A stretch of DNA of 64,000 nucleotides from the NCBI RefSeq assembly GCF_003807585.1, contig NZ_RMBX01000008.1, forward strand, positions 248,001-312,000, read 5' to 3'. The DNA comes from Chitinophaga barathri (lineage in GTDB: Bacteria; Bacteroidota; Bacteroidia; Chitinophagales; Chitinophagaceae). The position numbers were made by a program, and so were the translations under genes. Shown one piece after another: positions 5,434 to 61,285 of the stretch (its first letter is position 1; every line of letters starts with the position of its first letter). Under the pieces are notes generated by a model that was not told where the DNA came from, did no database searches, and saw nothing but the letters and a program-made list of their open reading frames with translations.

Positions 5434-6984
5434 TTACAATTTGATTTCTTCGTCGTTGGCATCAAAGAAGTGGTATTCCGTAAGATGATAATTGGAATCC
5501 GCTTTGAGTTTGATCCATTTTTTGTGGGCGAAGTACCATTTCCACTGCCGGCTGCGCATGAACCAGCCTTTGTTGAGGAAGGCGTACAGTATCGGGTGTA
5601 CGCGGATGGTGAGGCCTTTGTGCTGGTGATTGAGGAGATACAGGAGGTTCTTCTCGATGTCTTCGACAATGAGCATGGAAGCGCCGATCTTGCCGGTGCC
5701 TTTGCAGGCCGGGCAATCTTCCGCAACGGAAATGGTGATCTCCGGTTTCACGCGCTGGCGGGTGATCTGCATCAGGCCGAACTTGGAAATGGGCAGGATG
5801 GTATGTTTTGCCCGGTCCGGCGCCATGAATTTTTCCATGGCTTCGTACACCGTTTTTTTGTTCTCCGGCAGTTTCATATCGATGAAGTCGATGATGATGA
5901 TGCCGCCCAGGTCGCGGAGCCTTAGCTGGCGTGCGATCTCGGCCGCCGCTTCCAGGTTGGAGGCGAGGGCGTTCTGTTCCTGGTTGTTGCTGGAGCTTTT
6001 ATAGCCGCTGTTCACGTCTATGACGTGCAGGGCTTCGGTGGCTTCGATGATGAGATAGACCCCGCTGTCCAGGTTCACGGTTTTGCCGAAAGATGCTTTC
6101 ACCTGGCGGGTGACGCCGAAGTGATCGAAGATGGGAGCGCCGTTGTGGTAATAGGTAACAATGTCCTGCTTTTCCGGCGCGATCTTCTGGATATACGTCT
6201 TGGTGTCCGTATAAATATTTTTATCGTTGATGACGATGCGGTTAAAGCTCTCGTTCAACAGGTCGCGCAGGATGCTGGTTGTTTTGGTCTGTTCGCTCAG
6301 TATTTTTTGCGGGGCCTGGCCGTTTCGCAGGTTTTCCTGGATGGTTTTCCAGGTGCTGACGAGGGTGGTCAGGTCTTCGTGTAGTTCGGCGGTCTTTTTT
6401 CCTTCGGCGGCGGTACGTACGATCACTCCAAAATTGGGCGGTTTGATGGCCTCAACGATCTTCTGTAGTCTTTTCCTTTCTTCCGATGAGTGTATCTTTT
6501 TGGATACGGCTACAATATTGTTGAAAGGGGTGATAACGATGAAGCGCCCCGGGAGCGATATTTCGCAGCTGAGCCTGGGGCCTTTGGAAGAAATGGGTTC
6601 TTTTAGGATCTGTACGAGGATGTTGGGTTTTCCGCCGAGCACTTCGGTGATCTTACCTGTTTTTACGATTTCCGGTTCATTCTTGAACTTTCCGAAATCG
6701 AAGGTCTCTGACTTGTCCGAGATGGATTGTTGGGTGAACTTTAAGAGTGACCGGATGTAGGGGCTGAGGTCCGTATAGTGCAGGAAGGCGTCTTTTTCGA
6801 AGCCAACATCTACAAAGGCCGCGTTCAGGCCGGGAATGAGTTTCTTTACTTTGCCCAAATAAAGGTCGCCCACCGCAAAATTAGGGTTACCGCTTTCATG
6901 ATGCAGCTCCACTAATTTTTTATCTTCCAGCAATGCTATTTCTACACCGGATGGTGCTGCATTTATAATCAATTCCTTATTCAA
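5434..6984 (-). CDS. rng: Ribonuclease G (RNase E/G family)
   Basis: A 516-residue RNase E/G family endoribonuclease, which matures rRNA 5' ends and decays mRNA. Visible are the S1 domain (NPNFAVGDLYLGKVKKLIPG... AAFVDVGFEKDAFLHYTDL, residues 33-75), the DNase I-like catalytic region with IDVNSGYKSS and GGIIIIDFIDM, and the Zn-link CPACKGTGKIG (about 434-444). An arginine-rich RNase E scaffold is absent, and the length fits RNase G. The start is TTG at 6982-6984, giving MNKELIINA, typical of Bacteroidota homologues; no ATG is nearby. Downstream of the HU/TPR/mini-protein genes on the same strand. Confidence 0.93.
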   Translation of the reverse strand: MNKELIINAAPSGVEIALLEDKKLVELHHESGNPNFAVGDLYLGKVKKLIPGLNAAFVDVGFEKDAFLHYTDLSPYIRSLLKFTQQSISDKSETFDFGKFKNEPEIVKTGKITEVLGGKPNILVQILKEPISSKGPRLSCEISLPGRFIVITPFNNIVAVSKKIHSSEERKRLQKIVEAIKPPNFGVIVRTAAEGKKTAELHEDLTTLVSTWKTIQENLRNGQAPQKILSEQTKTTSILRDLLNESFNRIVINDKNIYTDTKTYIQKIAPEKQDIVTYYHNGAPIFDHFGVTRQVKASFGKTVNLDSGVYLIIEATEALHVIDVNSGYKSSSNNQEQNALASNLEAAAEIARQLRLRDLGGIIIIDFIDMKLPENKKTVYEAMEKFMAPDRAKHTILPISKFGLMQITRQRVKPEITISVAEDCPACKGTGKIGASMLIVEDIEKNLLYLLNHQHKGLTIRVHPILYAFLNKGWFMRSRQWKWYFAHKKWIKLKADSNYHLTEYHFFDANDEEIKL

Positions 6985-7297
6985 GCGTCAAAATTTTATC
7001 CATAAATACTTCACTTTAGTGCACCCGCAGTGTTAACACGGGAATACAACATGCCCAAATGAGAGGCCGGGGTCTGGGACCGGCGATTCACTACGAGGAG
7101 AGGATTGTGCAAAGGGTTCTAGTGATATACAGGATAAGTTCCGGAATCTGTAGGCCGAACTACGAAAACAACCTGCATGACTTTAGCAATTTAACAATTA
7201 AAGCTAAAATCATGCAGGATCGTCTAAAAAAATTTATCGTGTCGGGCCCTACCGTCTACTTATACCTGTTAGTATAAATGGCGGGGAAACAGGAGAA
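6985..7297. other. Gene-free stretch upstream of rng with a long hairpin
   Basis: About 310 bases between rng and the AURKAIP1/COX24-like gene. The only striking element is the 7172-7218 stem. No exact TAnnTTTG promoter for rng was found. A 72-codon open frame on the plus strand (7059-7277) has no protein-like features and is not called. Confidence 0.5.
7172..7218. terminator. Long hairpin, probably 3' end of the COX24-like gene transcript
   Basis: CCTGCATGA-C-TTTAGC (7172-7187) pairs with GCTAAA-A-TCATGCAGG (7203-7218): 15 base pairs interrupted by one mismatch, with a 15-base AT-rich loop. It lies 80 bases after the stop of the mini-protein gene on the minus strand and is followed there by TTGTTTTC. 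It could terminate that transcript or act as a processing site upstream of rng. Confidence 0.5.
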
Positions 7298-7393
7298 TTA
7301 TTTCTTACCTTTCTTATGACGGTTTTTTCTCAACCTTTTTTTGCGTTTGTGGGTTGCGATTTTATGTCTTTTTCTTTTCTTTCCGCAGGGCAT
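7298..7393 (-). CDS. AURKAIP1/COX24-domain mini-protein (mS38-like, ribosome-associated)
   Basis: A 31-residue, extremely basic protein: MPCGKKRKRHKIATHKRKKR followed by LRKNRHKKGKK. The HKxxTHKRKKRLRKNRHK core is the AURKAIP1/COX24 signature, known from mitoribosomal protein mS38 and from tiny conserved proteins of Bacteroidota. A role as a ribosomal or ribosome-associated protein is inferred from that family. The start is the ATG at 7391-7393. It lies 32 bases downstream of the TPR gene, in the run HU, TPR protein, mini-protein, RNase G, a grouping with a translation and RNA flavour. Confidence 0.85.
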   Translation of the reverse strand: MPCGKKRKRHKIATHKRKKRLRKNRHKKGKK

Positions 7394-7425
7394 ACCTTTT
7401 TTTGTTTTTAATGTTTTATAATATA

Positions 7426-8283
7426 TTACTTAATGCTCTTTATATACTCGTCTATCTCAGCAGCCAGCGCCGGATCTTTGATCAGCTTGCGGCATTGACG
7501 GAGCAGATCGATAGCTTTCTCATTTTCTCCTTTGCTCTGATGGGCCACGGCCAGCAGGAACATTGCTTTGGGCTCGTCAGGCTTGCGTTCCAGTACTTTT
7601 TCCATCCGTTCGATCGCTTTGTCGAACTGGCCGGAGGTGATACTGAAATTGGCCAGTGTGAGCTGGGCATCCAGGAAATCAGGATTCCGCTCCGCTACTT
7701 CCCTCAGAATGCCGATGCCTTCCATAGGCGCCGAGCTATTGCTGATTACAAGCAGCGTACCTTTCTTTACTTTCAGCGTGTCATTGTTTGGTTCAAGCGC
7801 GATAGCCCTGTCAAGCAACTCTTTAGCCTTTTCGGCCTCCCACTGTCTTACGCCCGCGTCCTGGGTGTGCGAGAGATGGTCTAAAAATAAATTGGCTGCA
7901 AAGGTGAGGCTTTTTCCCGAATTTTCCAACTTAGCGGCTTCGGCGGCATAATGTGCGGCGATGGGGAGCTCGTTTAGATTGTCCCAGATGGTGTACAATT
8001 GCCGGTAAGCGGTGATCTGTTGGGTCTGAACATCACCGCGTACGACAGTATTTTCAAGCCCGGTGATTTCCACCAGCTTGTCAGCAGGAACCTTTTCTTT
8101 GGCCTTTTTGAGCAGATCGTTAAAATCGGCAGCCTTTGTTTCCGCCATGGGAGCGCCTTCAGCGGCGTGGTCATGACCTTCATGATCGTGCCCATGCACT
8201 TTCGGCGATATCCGGCCAAACGCAAACAGTACCGAGATTACGGCAACAGCAAGGCCAATAAGGAGTAGTTGATTTCTTTGCAC
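7426..8283 (-). CDS. Membrane-anchored tetratricopeptide-repeat protein with histidine-rich segment
   Basis: A 285-residue protein. Residues 5-22 (QLLLIGLAVAVISVLFAFG) form one membrane anchor. A histidine/acid-rich stretch (HGHDHEGHDHAAE, about 30-42) could bind metal. Residues about 60-285 are helical TPR units, clearest in the last two (FLDAQLTLANFSITSGQFDK and PDEPKAMFLLAVAHQSKGEN). The start is GTG at 8281-8283. It is probably exported and tethered to the inner membrane. It lies 23 bases after HU and upstream of the COX24-like mini-protein. The TPR class suggests a scaffold role, but the partner is unknown. Confidence 0.85.
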   Translation of the reverse strand: MQRNQLLLIGLAVAVISVLFAFGRISPKVHGHDHEGHDHAAEGAPMAETKAADFNDLLKKAKEKVPADKLVEITGLENTVVRGDVQTQQITAYRQLYTIWDNLNELPIAAHYAAEAAKLENSGKSLTFAANLFLDHLSHTQDAGVRQWEAEKAKELLDRAIALEPNNDTLKVKKGTLLVISNSSAPMEGIGILREVAERNPDFLDAQLTLANFSITSGQFDKAIERMEKVLERKPDEPKAMFLLAVAHQSKGENEKAIDLLRQCRKLIKDPALAAEIDEYIKSIK

Positions 8284-8306
8284 CTAATAAATGTTAGGAT
8301 GCAAAT

Positions 8307-8594
8307 CTAAGAACTTTTGAGCTTTTTAACTTCTGCTACAAACTCTTTAGATGGCTTAAATGCTGGAATGAAGTGTTCCGGGATCTCCACGGCCACGTTC
8401 TTCTTGATGTTACGGCCAATCTTGGCAGCTCTTTTCTTGGTGATAAAGCTACCGAACCCGCGGATGTAGATATGCTCGCCATTTGCTAACGCCTCCTTAA
8501 CTTCCTTGAACATGGCTTCGAGTGTTACTAACACATCTACTTTGGGGATGCCGGTTTTTTCAGCAATGTTGTTAATCAAATCAGCTTTTCTCAT
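8307..8594 (-). CDS. HU/IHF-family DNA-binding protein
   Basis: A 95-residue histone-like protein that bends and compacts DNA. It has the N-terminal helices MRKADLINNIAEKTGIPKVD and the GEHIYIRGFGSFITKKRAAK core. The arm region is NIKKNVAVEIPEHFIPAFKP, where the proline of the flexible beta-arm tip is expected. A TAnnTTTG element (8621-8628 on the minus strand) lies 27 bases upstream of the ATG. It differs clearly from the second HU copy at 62.6 kb, so the cell has at least two HU-type proteins. Confidence 0.93.
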   Translation of the reverse strand: MRKADLINNIAEKTGIPKVDVLVTLEAMFKEVKEALANGEHIYIRGFGSFITKKRAAKIGRNIKKNVAVEIPEHFIPAFKPSKEFVAEVKKLKSS

Positions 8595-8620
8595 AATGAA
8601 GCGGAGGATTACTTGTTTTC

Positions 8621-58144: not shown

Positions 58145-60118
58145 TCAGGCAGCCTGGTCTTCCTCTTCGATCATCAGCGTATATTCAAACGACGTATATG
58201 TCTCGCCGTCACTTGCCACGGAAATCGTTCCCTGCATCTTCTCAATAAAATCTTTGCAGATGATCAACGCTAAACCCGCACCGCGACCGGTTTCCCTTGT
58301 TATCGCACCCGGCACGCGATAAGTAAAGATGTAAGGCATATCAATCTCCGTAATACCGCTGCCGCCATTGGTTACGGTGACGATCACACGATCGCCGAAC
58401 TGGCGGGCGACAATGGATACAGGGCTTCCCCTCCGGGAATATTTAACCGCGTTGTGCAGCAGGTTACGGTTCACGAATTGCAGCATTTCACGGTCCGCGC
58501 GTACGGTAAGGCCGAACGGGATCTGCAGGTCCATGGCCAGTGCCTTGTCCCTGATATCCGCCATCATCGGCTCTCTCGCTTCATCCCAAAGCTCCTGTAA
58601 CGAATAGGGTTGGGCTTTATATTCAAACCCGGCAAGCTGTGATTTGATCCAGCTCAGCACGGTCTCGAACAACTGGAGCGTTTCCACCGCCCTGGAAGAT
58701 ATACTGTTGGCGATCTCCTGGAATTGATCAGGCCTGATATCTTTTTGCTGGAAAAGATTTGTAACGCTGATGATATGACTGAGCGGGAGCCTGAAGTCAT
58801 GTGCAAGGATGGACAGGAGTTTGTTCTTAAAATCGTCATGCCGCTGAAGCTGTTTGTTTTTGTCCATCATCATGCGGTTGATCTCTTTCAGCCTTTTGGC
58901 GCTCATGCGTGATTCGCGGGTGGATTTGTAATAAATGTATACCAGTCCCGCCGCCAGCAGTGTACAAACCACGAGGAAGAGGATCAGCATGGTCCTGTGA
59001 CGGCTCACGAGTTTGTCCGAAACGAGCGTCTGCTCCTGCAATTCCTTGTTCAGCCGCAATGCCCGCAGCTCCTGCTCCTGCAGGAAAGATTCCATATAAT
59101 CCTGTTCGCCCTGCGTGCGGAGGTCTTCCTGGTGCGTGGCTATTTCGCAAAGCACATCGGCGTACGGAAGGGCCGCGGCCGGGCCTATTGCTTTATAATA
59201 CTGGTACAATGAAGTGACCGGGCGTACCATCAGTTTTTTATACCCGCCAAGGATGGCAGCATCCAGCATCTGTTTCCGGTAGCTGATGGAATCGGGCATT
59301 TTCGCGTACGTGGAATAAATATCCATCTGGGCATTGGCGTACAACGCGAGATAAGAATACCCTTCCCGGAAAGAATGCGCGGCCAGCCGCTTCAGGTTTT
59401 CCATGGCCCTGTCCATCCGGCCGGCCTTTACTTCTTCATGCGCGAGAAAAAGGCCTGTATAAGTGATGATACGATCGTCGTGGTAACGGGTGGCAATGTC
59501 GCGGGCTTTGTTCAGCGCCCAGCGGGCGGAATCCTGGCGCAGGCTGTCTTCTGCGAAGACGAGGTAATAATTGGCGAGCATACTGGCCCACACGGAGTCT
59601 TTCAGCAACCGGCTGCCGACGCCCATCGATTCCTCCATATAAGGGATAGCCAGCTCGTCTTTACCTTCATAATGGAAATAGCTGCCGATACAATATAAAG
59701 CCTGGCAGATGCCCGCGGAATCGCCGAGGTTGCGGTAACGCATGAGGCCTTCGAGGTAAAAACGGTGAGCAAGCTTGCCGTTGTTCTGGAAGGAAAAGCT
59801 GGAGCCGAGGTTCATGTATGCATCCGCCAGTCCTTTATGATAACGCGTTCTTATAGCAAGGGCCTTTGCCTGCTCGGCGTATACAAAACAGCTGTCCAGC
59901 TGATGTACGAGCGAGAGGGCGCTGATGCGGTTGAGCAGGTCTGTGTACTGCGCGCTGTCCGTTACTTTACCGCTATACAGGGTGTTTTTGAGGGATTGTA
60001 CAAGTTGTTGCTGGCCGGATGCGGGAATGGAAAAAAGGAATAAAAAACAAAACAGCGGCGGAAGCAGGCGGATATTGTTTCCGACAGAGAAGATCCGGGG
60101 CAGGGAATTTTTTGTCAT
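58145..60118 (-). CDS. Sensor histidine kinase with periplasmic TPR domain
   Basis: A 657-residue membrane sensor. The N-terminal signal region contains PPLFCFLFLFSIPASG. Residues 40-330 are TPR-like helices (LADAYMNLGSSFSFQNNGKL, AGICQALYCIGSYFHYEGKD). A coiled stretch leads to one membrane helix (TMLILFLVVCTLLAAGLVYI). The kinase core has the H-box SILAHDFRLPLSHIISVTNL, the N-box FVNRNLLHNAVKYSRRG and the G-boxes in GRGAGLALIICKDFIEKMQG. No receiver domain is attached and no response regulator is adjacent. It is divergent from the double-glycine peptide genes. Confidence 0.92.
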   Translation of the reverse strand: MTKNSLPRIFSVGNNIRLLPPLFCFLFLFSIPASGQQQLVQSLKNTLYSGKVTDSAQYTDLLNRISALSLVHQLDSCFVYAEQAKALAIRTRYHKGLADAYMNLGSSFSFQNNGKLAHRFYLEGLMRYRNLGDSAGICQALYCIGSYFHYEGKDELAIPYMEESMGVGSRLLKDSVWASMLANYYLVFAEDSLRQDSARWALNKARDIATRYHDDRIITYTGLFLAHEEVKAGRMDRAMENLKRLAAHSFREGYSYLALYANAQMDIYSTYAKMPDSISYRKQMLDAAILGGYKKLMVRPVTSLYQYYKAIGPAAALPYADVLCEIATHQEDLRTQGEQDYMESFLQEQELRALRLNKELQEQTLVSDKLVSRHRTMLILFLVVCTLLAAGLVYIYYKSTRESRMSAKRLKEINRMMMDKNKQLQRHDDFKNKLLSILAHDFRLPLSHIISVTNLFQQKDIRPDQFQEIANSISSRAVETLQLFETVLSWIKSQLAGFEYKAQPYSLQELWDEAREPMMADIRDKALAMDLQIPFGLTVRADREMLQFVNRNLLHNAVKYSRRGSPVSIVARQFGDRVIVTVTNGGSGITEIDMPYIFTYRVPGAITRETGRGAGLALIICKDFIEKMQGTISVASDGETYTSFEYTLMIEEEDQAA

Positions 60119-60209: not shown

Positions 60210-60312
60210 CAAGTATAAGTTACATAAAACGGTGGAATTATTGATTTTTCAATATGCAGGGTTTTCCGCATATAAAATGTTAACCGATTGCTAACAACTG
60301 CTTGTTCAGGAA

Positions 60313-60384
60313 ATGAACAAAAAAGAAAGTAAGGCCTTGAAAATGAACAAACTGAACAGCAAAAGATCGATTGCAGCTCTGTAA
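60313..60384 (+). pseudogene. Possible truncated peptide-precursor leader
   Basis: A 23-residue frame starting MNKKESKALKMNKLNSKRSI and ending AAL-stop. Its L-K-M-N-K...S-I-A-A-L pattern resembles the leader of Bacteroidota class I lanthipeptide precursors (LxLxKxTIxxL). In those the leader continues to a double glycine and a core. Here a TAA interrupts it and the downstream frame shows no core. It could be a decayed precursor or a coincidence. Confidence 0.3.
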
Positions 60385-60548
60385 TTTACAGTCTGTCATA
60401 AAATTTTTATCGTGGTTGTTCCCCGACAGAGCATCTAAAGACCCTGACCAATGAATGATCTAAGCCCCCGGGATTCATCGCCGATATACTCCTGATACCA
60501 GGAAAATGACAGCCAACAAAATCGTTTTTTAACCAAACCTCCTATCAT

Positions 60549-60830
60549 ATGGAAAACTTGCAAGTACACAACTATGGTTGCCAGGAACTGGATGCAACCA
60601 CGACCCAAGACGTTAACGGAGGATTCCTCTCTCTGGGTATCGCCAATGTTAACGGTAAAATCACTCTCGGAGCCCAGCTCGATACCAACGCCCTGCTTTC
60701 AGGTCTTCCCGGCCTGCCCGGCACCGGCGGCGGCGTTCCCGGCTTAGGCGGCCTCGGTAATTTACTCGCCCCTGTTACCAACCTGCTGAACAGCCTCCTC
60801 GGCGGCCTCGGCGGTGGTTTACTGGGCTAA
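60549..60830 (+). CDS. Double-glycine-leader peptide precursor, Gly/Leu-rich (paralogue 1)
   Basis: A 93-residue small protein. Residues 1-25 (MENLQVHNYGCQELDATTTQ, DVNGG) form a double-glycine leader of the kind cleaved by C39-peptidase ABC exporters, with the conserved QEL and G24-G25. The 68-residue core starts FLSLGIANVNGKITLGAQLD and continues into a Gly/Pro/Leu-rich half ending NLLAPVTNLLNSLLGGLGG-GLLG, with GxxxG-type spacing and no cysteine. This suits an unmodified class II-like bacteriocin or a signal peptide. It is followed by a strong terminator and a close paralogue. No exporter or immunity gene is nearby. Confidence 0.75.
   Translation: MENLQVHNYGCQELDATTTQDVNGGFLSLGIANVNGKITLGAQLDTNALLSGLPGLPGTGGGVPGLGGLGNLLAPVTNLLNSLLGGLGGGLLG
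60774..60814 (+). repeat. 41-bp repeat shared by the two peptide genes (copy 1)
   Basis: This segment encodes the end of the core (VTNLLNSLLGGLGG). It recurs at 61134-61174 with a single base difference, evidence of recent duplication or gene conversion. Confidence 0.85.
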
Positions 60831-60856
60831 GAAACTGTAAAACCGGTTTAAAACCT

Positions 60857-60890
60857 GGTGGCGCTCATGGTACAGAGCGCCACCTTTTTT
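60857..60890 (+). terminator. Strong terminator or attenuator between the two peptide genes
   Basis: GGTGGCGCTC (60857-60866), loop ATGGTACA, GAGCGCCACC (60875-60884), then six T. Only 27 bases remain before the second peptide's ATG, too few for a separate full promoter, so the second gene depends on read-through or on RNA processing. Confidence 0.9.
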
Positions 60891-60917
60891 CCATTCACCC
60901 TCACAAACCCATTGCTT

Positions 60918-61193
60918 ATGCAAAACCTGCAGCCACAACTCTTCGGATGCCAGGAGCTCTCACAGGCAGACGCCCATGACATCAACGGCGGCCTTATCGA
61001 TCTCGGCTTCCTGAAAATCGATCTTGTAAACGCGGACGGCAAGATCAACCTCGGCATTACCATCGACCCCAACGGCCTCGGCGGCTTACCCGGCGGCGGC
61101 GGAACGGGCGGCCTGGGCAACATCCTCTCCCCCGTTACCAACCTGCTGAACAGCCTCCTCGGTGGCCTCGGCGGAGTTGTTAATCCATTGTAA
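60918..61193 (+). CDS. Double-glycine-leader peptide precursor, Gly/Leu-rich (paralogue 2)
   Basis: A 91-residue paralogue. The ATG at 60918 is chosen because it gives a leader of the same 25-residue length (MQNLQPQLFGCQELSQADAH, DINGG), aligned with paralogue 1 at NLQ, GCQEL and NGG. The 66-residue core begins LIDLGFLKIDLVNADGKINL and ends in NILSPVTNLLNSLLGGLGG-VVNPL, again without cysteine. The N-terminal core halves differ more than the C-terminal ones, so the pair could act as two different peptides. A strong terminator follows at 61219-61251. Confidence 0.75.
   Translation: MQNLQPQLFGCQELSQADAHDINGGLIDLGFLKIDLVNADGKINLGITIDPNGLGGLPGGGGTGGLGNILSPVTNLLNSLLGGLGGVVNPL
61134..61174 (+). repeat. 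41-bp repeat shared by the two peptide genes (copy 2)
   Basis: Same sequence as 60774-60814 except one synonymous change (GGC to GGT). Confidence 0.85.
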
Positions 61194-61218
61194 ACACCAT
61201 TTCATAACAATCTTCCTG

Positions 61219-61251
61219 AGACTGTACTGATACATCAGTACAGTCTTTTTT
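61219..61251 (+). terminator. Intrinsic terminator of the peptide locus
   Basis: AGACTGTACTGA (61219-61230), loop TACA, TCAGTACAGTCT (61235-61246), then TTTTT. A perfect 12-bp stem. Confidence 0.94.
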
Positions 61252-61285
61252 ATGCGAATCCTTATTTTTGCTGAAATAATTCATC

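Follow-up and report, generated by a model that had tools for sequence, protein, structure and literature searches.

Two small genes, pepA and pepB, stand in tandem on the forward strand of the analysed window, i.e. the whole stretch of 64,000 nucleotides from the soil bacterium Chitinophaga barathri, whose genome assembly comprises 28 contigs and 6.86 Mb (the pair lies on contig C27). pepA (60549..60830) encodes a 93-aa peptide with a double-glycine (GG) leader of residues 1-25 (60549-60623), with a predicted cleavage site behind Gly25, so that Phe26 would be the first residue of the core. pepB (60918..61193) encodes a 91-aa GG-leader paralogue with its leader at 60918-60992 and a predicted core start at Leu26; its start is most plausibly the ATG at 60918, not the upstream GTG of the longest open reading frame (ORF). 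Both cores are rich in Gly and Leu and are free of Cys, as an earlier note on this DNA had described, and each leader contains a single Cys. The 41-bp segment which that note had reported to recur with one mismatch was found as VTNLLNSLLGGLGG near the 3' end of pepA (60774..60814, forward strand), with its partner copy in pepB (61134..61174, same strand). Strong terminators, both on the forward strand, are situated between the two genes (60857..60890; -21.8 kcal/mol, z -5.95) and after pepB (61218..61252; -19 kcal/mol, z -6.83). The coordinates in the earlier note were right, although they omitted these two terminators and the conserved promoter region upstream of pepA (60303-60388).

Divergent from pepA, on the reverse strand, a TPR-HisKA-HATPase sensor kinase (58145..60118) was recognised by domain and curated-model searches (best curated match FimS, 140.5 bits against a cut-off of 600 bits). 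Apart from pepA, pepB and this kinase, the only gene recognised at the locus within the window was a nuclease-like gene downstream of the peptide genes, which we take to be exonuclease III. The wider gene order seen is kinase - pepA - (pepB) - nuclease - HU, some of these gene names being presumptive. In many species, a small gene in the neighbourhood of pepA is presumably a REP-associated transposase (L032-L040, approximately 6000-8600, reverse strand).

The two peptides are encoded by real paralogous genes. When PepA and PepB were aligned at full length, the score was 239, while the maximum in 2000 shuffles was 80; the leaders alone scored 74 (shuffle maximum 42) and the cores alone 179 (shuffle maximum 90). 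The alignment also bears out the earlier claim that the leaders line up at NLQ, GCQEL and NGG. Across the leader alignment, M1, G10, C11, E13, G24 and G25 are invariant; the leaders have the form GC.EL...NGG, and a GG leader ending with such conserved positions, as expected of peptides exported by C39 transporters, is present in both PepA and PepB. pepA is under purifying selection in each part tested, its core as strongly as its leader: the mean pN/pS was 0.23 (16 orthologues, 120 pairs), with 0.22 in the leader, 0.18 in the C-terminal segment and the highest value, 0.31, in the linker. These values apply to pepA, and five orthologues (G001, G014, G104, G109 and G110) were omitted as too distant.

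Searches with PepA and PepB returned nothing from Pfam, NCBIfam or PADLOC, and their family profile found nothing in the PDB. The NCBIfam model TIGR01847 (bacteriocin_sig) had no match above its cut-off in the host genome, and Rfam gave two matches only (E 0.6 and 0.99), far under the gathering scores. An AlphaFold model of low confidence (pLDDT 54.6) suggests that the peptide may fold into a beta-hairpin, a Gly-rich linker and a helix.

Strong leader-profile matches (E <= 2e-12) were detected in 22 of 79 genomes of the genus, and in 26 at E 0.1. Matches at E 0.001 in an order-wide sample were limited to 3 of 298 genomes and to one genus of 140, all three being Chitinophaga. A separate order-wide search at E 0.01 yielded matches in 15 of 99 genomes, one of them weak and outside the genus; this match (G086, E 0.009, within a 2206-aa frame) was taken as chance. 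Ten named records encoding relatives of the pair were all from Chitinophaga, some of them metagenome-assembled genomes. Two peptide genes were present at 12 of the 21 readable pepA loci, and pepA only at the other nine, although in one of these, G011, a peptide of similar type is encoded on a different contig. The codon and promoter counts omit one genome (G114, completeness 65%), whose pepA did not yield an open frame with the pattern used, leaving n=21. The second peptide, in the position of pepB, occurs in four core types. In many relatives, base-changed hairpins follow pepA (as judged by eye) whether pepB is present or not, so that pepB looks like an addition behind the terminator of pepA. 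The locus is conserved, as one and the same downstream gene, presumably that of exonuclease III, was located within 1.5 kb after a GC-leader gene in all pepA genomes but one (21/22; exception G104).

Alignment of 21 upstream regions revealed a conserved array in front of pepA, consisting, in this order, of an inverted box TGTTCA-N5-TGAACA, two directly repeated TGAAC, 9-10 nt apart, and the putative -7 element TAATTTA. In the window, all on the forward strand, the inverted box is found at 60303..60319, the direct pair AAAATGAACAAACTGAACA at 60340..60358 and TAATTTA at 60382..60388, 24 nt after the second TGAAC. With <=1 mismatch allowed, the window has no further copy of the inverted box; shuffled sequences had 0.18 copies on average, and 15 in 100 contained one. 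Of the 20 pepA promoters bearing the pair, 19 have 23-24 nt between it and TAATTTA; in the twentieth (G101), a gap of 24 nt is obtained if the -7 pattern is relaxed. The idea that box and -7 element always keep this distance was considered and rejected, since outside pepA promoters it was found, with the looser pattern, at only 4/10 pepD, 2/12 other GC-leader and 6/12 adhesin loci.

The exact 19-mer AAAATGAACAAACTGAACA occurs only twice in 6.86 Mb, i.e. before pepA and before a third peptide gene, pepC. At <=3 mismatches, it had 17 matches in the genome vs 4 for the reversed pattern, although only four of the 17 precede regulon members as defined here. Of the two 2-mismatch matches, one stands before an adhesin operon (contig C13) and the other inside a gene (C28); one 3-mismatch match led to a fourth peptide gene, pepD, and the remaining 12 are the other 3-mismatch matches. 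When a pair was counted as TGAAY-N4-5-TGAAY within 450 nt upstream, it was present at 20 of 21 pepA genes (exception G110) and at every other GC-leader gene (16 genes at 15 loci), two of these genes being neighbours with one common box (L163). A weak leader match without GG (G058 C2, E 0.046) was not counted as a GC-leader gene, though it has the pair upstream. By comparison, 8 of 479 control genes had the pair, six of these eight being in loci fetched for a box; the controls were longest-ORF calls of >=150 aa, some of which are not true genes. Genus-wide, the box pattern had 533 matches vs 30 for the reversed control and was found in every one of the 79 genomes, pepA present or not, also upstream of unrelated genes and within genes.

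A second box-promoter geometry, facing away from pepA, was noticed at seven loci of relatives (L155, L157, L158, L159, L160, L161 and L172), and small ORFs without a GG leader are located downstream of it. No such outward-facing second promoter was seen in this window.

The position of the array between kinase and pepA raises the question of signalling. The kinase adjoins pepA in 17 of the 22 pepA genomes (the match in G114 being partial) and, at >=52% identity, was detected in none of the 57 genus genomes without pepA; moreover, C39-exported GG peptides are frequently pheromones. Mature PepA might thus be a signal sensed, for example, by this kinase and tuning the TGAAC regulon. Against this, five of the 22 pepA genomes have no kinase and four of these five retain the box pair, the box itself does not follow pepA across the genus, no gene for a response regulator was noticed next to the kinase, and a Gly-rich core of 65-70 residues appears long and of low specificity for a pheromone. 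We therefore regard a signalling role as improbable, while the divergent kinase would still be one candidate input to the box.

The box led to peptides which differ from the pair in their cores. pepC (G000:C7:94934-94996 and beyond, L152, reverse strand) has the exact copy of the 19-mer upstream and encodes a GC-leader peptide with a hydrophobic core unlike that of pepA (YALTKGF...PLAGPL...FVDPV). pepD (G000:C26:81010-81207, L249) encodes a GG-leader peptide (MLPTILTELS...ITGG) whose core has a conserved LPTLPPV; it was not sought, went unreported by the leader profile and surfaced through the 3-mismatch copy of the box (L190). Relatives of pepD were found in 11 of 79 genomes, most at weak E-values; ten of these are pepA genomes, and nine of the ten have the TGAAC pair upstream (exception G039). 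The eleventh match (G117, E 0.048), without the pair, was taken as chance. The discovery of pepD served as an unplanned test of the regulon.

pepC gave two weak matches, both under the cut-offs: one to a lactococcin G-beta model (24.4 bits, cut-off 37), which we consider below, and one to a grasp-with-spasm precursor model (15 bits, cut-off 33). The latter would fit a modified (RiPP) natural product with its tailoring enzymes located elsewhere, as a precursor gene and those of its enzymes need not be neighbours. Considering that no tailoring gene was seen at the pepAB locus, that the PepA and PepB cores have no Cys and that neither peptide has a Pfam or NCBIfam match, such a product is highly improbable.

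As to export, the host genome holds a single protein with a Peptidase_C39 domain, so the complete lack of a C39-type exporter, named in the earlier note as grounds for refutation, was not observed. This 725-aa ABC protein scored 528.5 bits against TIGR01193, above the cut-off of 523.85 bits, and its gene adjoins that of an HlyD-family adaptor. By eye, a Cys in DCGAAC is followed by HH and DPSDG, which we take to be the positions of the catalytic residues. Exporter and adaptor lie on contig C11 and are thus unlinked to the peptides on C27. C39 proteins of any type are present in 78 of the 79 genus genomes, so that only the orthologous exporter is informative; its ortholog (E 1e-250 or better) was found in 22/22 pepA genomes vs 10/57 others (p 3e-12 in Fisher's test, with no correction for phylogeny). 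Export of PepA and PepB by this C39 ABC protein, as the earlier note had supposed, is therefore supported on genomic grounds. The NGG leaders would be cut by the peptidase domain of the exporter, which together with the adjacent adaptor would make up a type I secretion route.

GG-leader peptides, often rich in Gly, occur near the exporter ortholog in at least 10 of 21 regions (the host genome and 20 chosen stretches), a figure that is a lower bound because the search pattern was narrow. This is guilt by association and not proof, and might indicate what type of substrate the exporter handles. Among the exporter regions covered from pepA genomes, GG peptides adjacent to the exporter were found in G104 and G109 only, and were of another kind. 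No TGAAC pair was present within 450 nt upstream of the host genome's exporter operon, and of the 16 GG peptides that adjoin the exporter in relatives only two (in G057 and G038) had a pair upstream; the 16 omit a likely frame artefact (L141 4920) and one peptide in L153. In other Chitinophaga, several unrelated Gly-rich GG-leader peptides stand beside the orthologous C39 exporter (L136, L139, L141, L146 and L147).

The earlier note had proposed, among other options, a secreted two-peptide antimicrobial. There is a known set of features to compare. A GG leader, a C39 ABC protein and an HlyD adaptor are the usual export set of microcins, and all three are present here; like class IIb bacteriocins and class II microcins, the pair has small Cys-free cores. 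Class IIb bacteriocins have cationic cores, and class II microcins have linked adaptor/ABC genes together with an immunity gene. The net charge of the pair is 0 and -2 (range for 34 cores, -4 to +1), inspection by eye revealed no immunity gene beside pepAB in the window, the exporter is unlinked (C11 vs C27) and, unlike the two obligatory adjacent peptides of class IIb, the partner is not always there, as nine of the 21 loci have pepA only. For these reasons, the data do not support a classic two-peptide bacteriocin. The purifying selection acting on the core is further evidence against it, as a conserved locus with pN/pS 0.23 is unlike a fast-changing weapon.

A looser version of this idea deserves separate consideration, in which PepA, with PepB as an optional partner, is secreted or held at the surface and permeabilises competitors, immunity being encoded elsewhere. 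The GxxxG motifs mentioned in the earlier note could point in this direction: GxxxGxxxG occurs in at least one peptide at 22/22 loci and is densest in the short PepB type. Its frequency, however, is about that predicted by composition (24/34 cores vs 19.9 in shuffled cores; 15/21 PepA orthologues vs 13.1 expected). A precedent exists in the contact-dependent bacteriocin CdzC/CdzD of Caulobacter, tandem small Gly-rich GG-leader proteins with GxxxGxxxG that undergo type I export and act as surface-held killers (PMC5380434). The exporter cdzAB and the immunity gene cdzI lie with them in one cluster and CdzC/D consist of about 75% Gly, Ala, Val and Ile (PMC5380434), whereas the Chitinophaga pair has 41-42% of these residues, an unlinked exporter and no immunity gene that was recognised nearby. 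Box-promoted small ORFs near pepA in some relatives could encode immunity partners. On balance, we find a bacteriocin- or microcin-like role unlikely, but it keeps real weight because of the weak likeness of pepC to lactococcin G-beta and because immunity could be unlinked.

Another line of evidence is provided by the box copy with two mismatches on contig C13, which precedes the gene of a 3,588-aa adhesin of the type IX secretion system (T9SS), type B. In this protein, 24 Ig_7 stretches (PF19081) and a type-B sorting domain (PF13585, TIGR04131) were recognised, all above cut-off. The adhesin gene is followed by a PorP/SprF gene (PF11751 and TIGR03519, above cut-off) and then by a gene for a PorE/OmpA-like protein, which runs off the end of the stretch and scored 237 bits with NF053607 and 214 bits with T9SS_PorE, both under the full-length cut-offs. 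The scanned copy of the host genome thus has the make-up of an SprB-like operon, i.e. a giant repeat protein with a type-B C-terminal domain followed by PorP/SprF. Among the matches listed, 20 further box stretches were hand-picked (non-randomly, with paired boxes preferred), and in 11 of them the box is followed by a giant gene whose start resembles that of the adhesin. The other nine contained a GC-leader peptide, pepD, presumed radC-like genes, a secreted protein adjoining an ABC gene, a box within a gene or nothing clear. A gene of approximately 860 aa stands across the box region from the adhesin at 12/12 loci including the host genome, where its product has 858 aa (L192 3097-5673, reverse strand, divergent from the adhesin). 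The host genome's copy had no family match; the protein is a candidate regulator or sensor.

A promoter element is therefore common to pepA, pepC, pepD and the adhesin operon, and it can be inferred that the box-bearing genes may be co-expressed. A common promoter box is, of itself, no proof of common function. Nevertheless, as this element is common to a T9SS type-B adhesin operon, the surface-assembly option, which the earlier note had listed beside the two-peptide antimicrobial, is the one we favour. We propose, with a probability of slightly less than one half, that PepA and PepB are C39-exported surface or matrix peptides deployed together with a gliding-type adhesin.

According to this proposal, PepA and PepB would be precursors of small secreted peptides of Chitinophaga. 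The TGAAC-pair regulon would comprise several unlinked, unrelated GG-leader peptides and the giant type-B adhesin with its PorP/SprF and PorE-like partners. Self-associating Gly/Leu peptides might be released when the adhesin is made, and could then coat, lubricate or cement cells in surface growth or gliding; it appears most likely that they act on the cell surface or within the matrix of the colony. The more specific picture of a surface-growth regulon, in which peptides leaving by the C39/type I path and the T9SS type-B adhesin are made together and the peptides act as an accessory coat, lubricant or glue, is tentative, and we would sooner bet against it than for it.

The nearest functional precedent would be the EbfG/PteB system, and Cdz the nearest antimicrobial one. 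In Synechococcus elongatus, biofilm formation requires the EbfG proteins, which have a GG motif, as well as a C39 transporter (PMC4997328), and some EbfG proteins form amyloid (PMC9981879). EbfG1-4/PteB might work in a similar way to the system proposed here, with several small GG-motif proteins whose export a C39 peptidase transporter assists and for which a part in biofilm, but no killing, has been demonstrated (PMC4997328, PMC9981879); yet ebfG1-4 are cotranscribed, whereas the Chitinophaga genes are scattered and tied by their promoters to a T9SS adhesin. The box-sharing gene resembles SprB/SprF (T9SS type B; PMC9143113) in its type-B sorting domain and in the PorP/SprF and PorE-like genes that follow, but the peptides, in contrast, would use type I/C39 export and not T9SS. 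Among the open-licence papers listed, judged by title and the start of the abstract, none was recognised that joins GG-leader export with SprB/gliding or with Chitinophaga. One of those listed, on Flavobacterium columnare genomes (PMC5524665), contains the words SprB, gliding motility and double-glycine.

If true, the proposed role would join double-glycine peptide export with surface adhesion in Bacteroidota. Double-glycine peptides of Gram-negative bacteria tend to be classed as bacteriocins, and the peptides described here are without most bacteriocin marks. As the case of pepD illustrates, the box offers a homology-free route to such GG peptides. PepA and PepB would thus be a specific example, open to experiment, of a possible further use of C39 export in building the cell surface of Bacteroidota.
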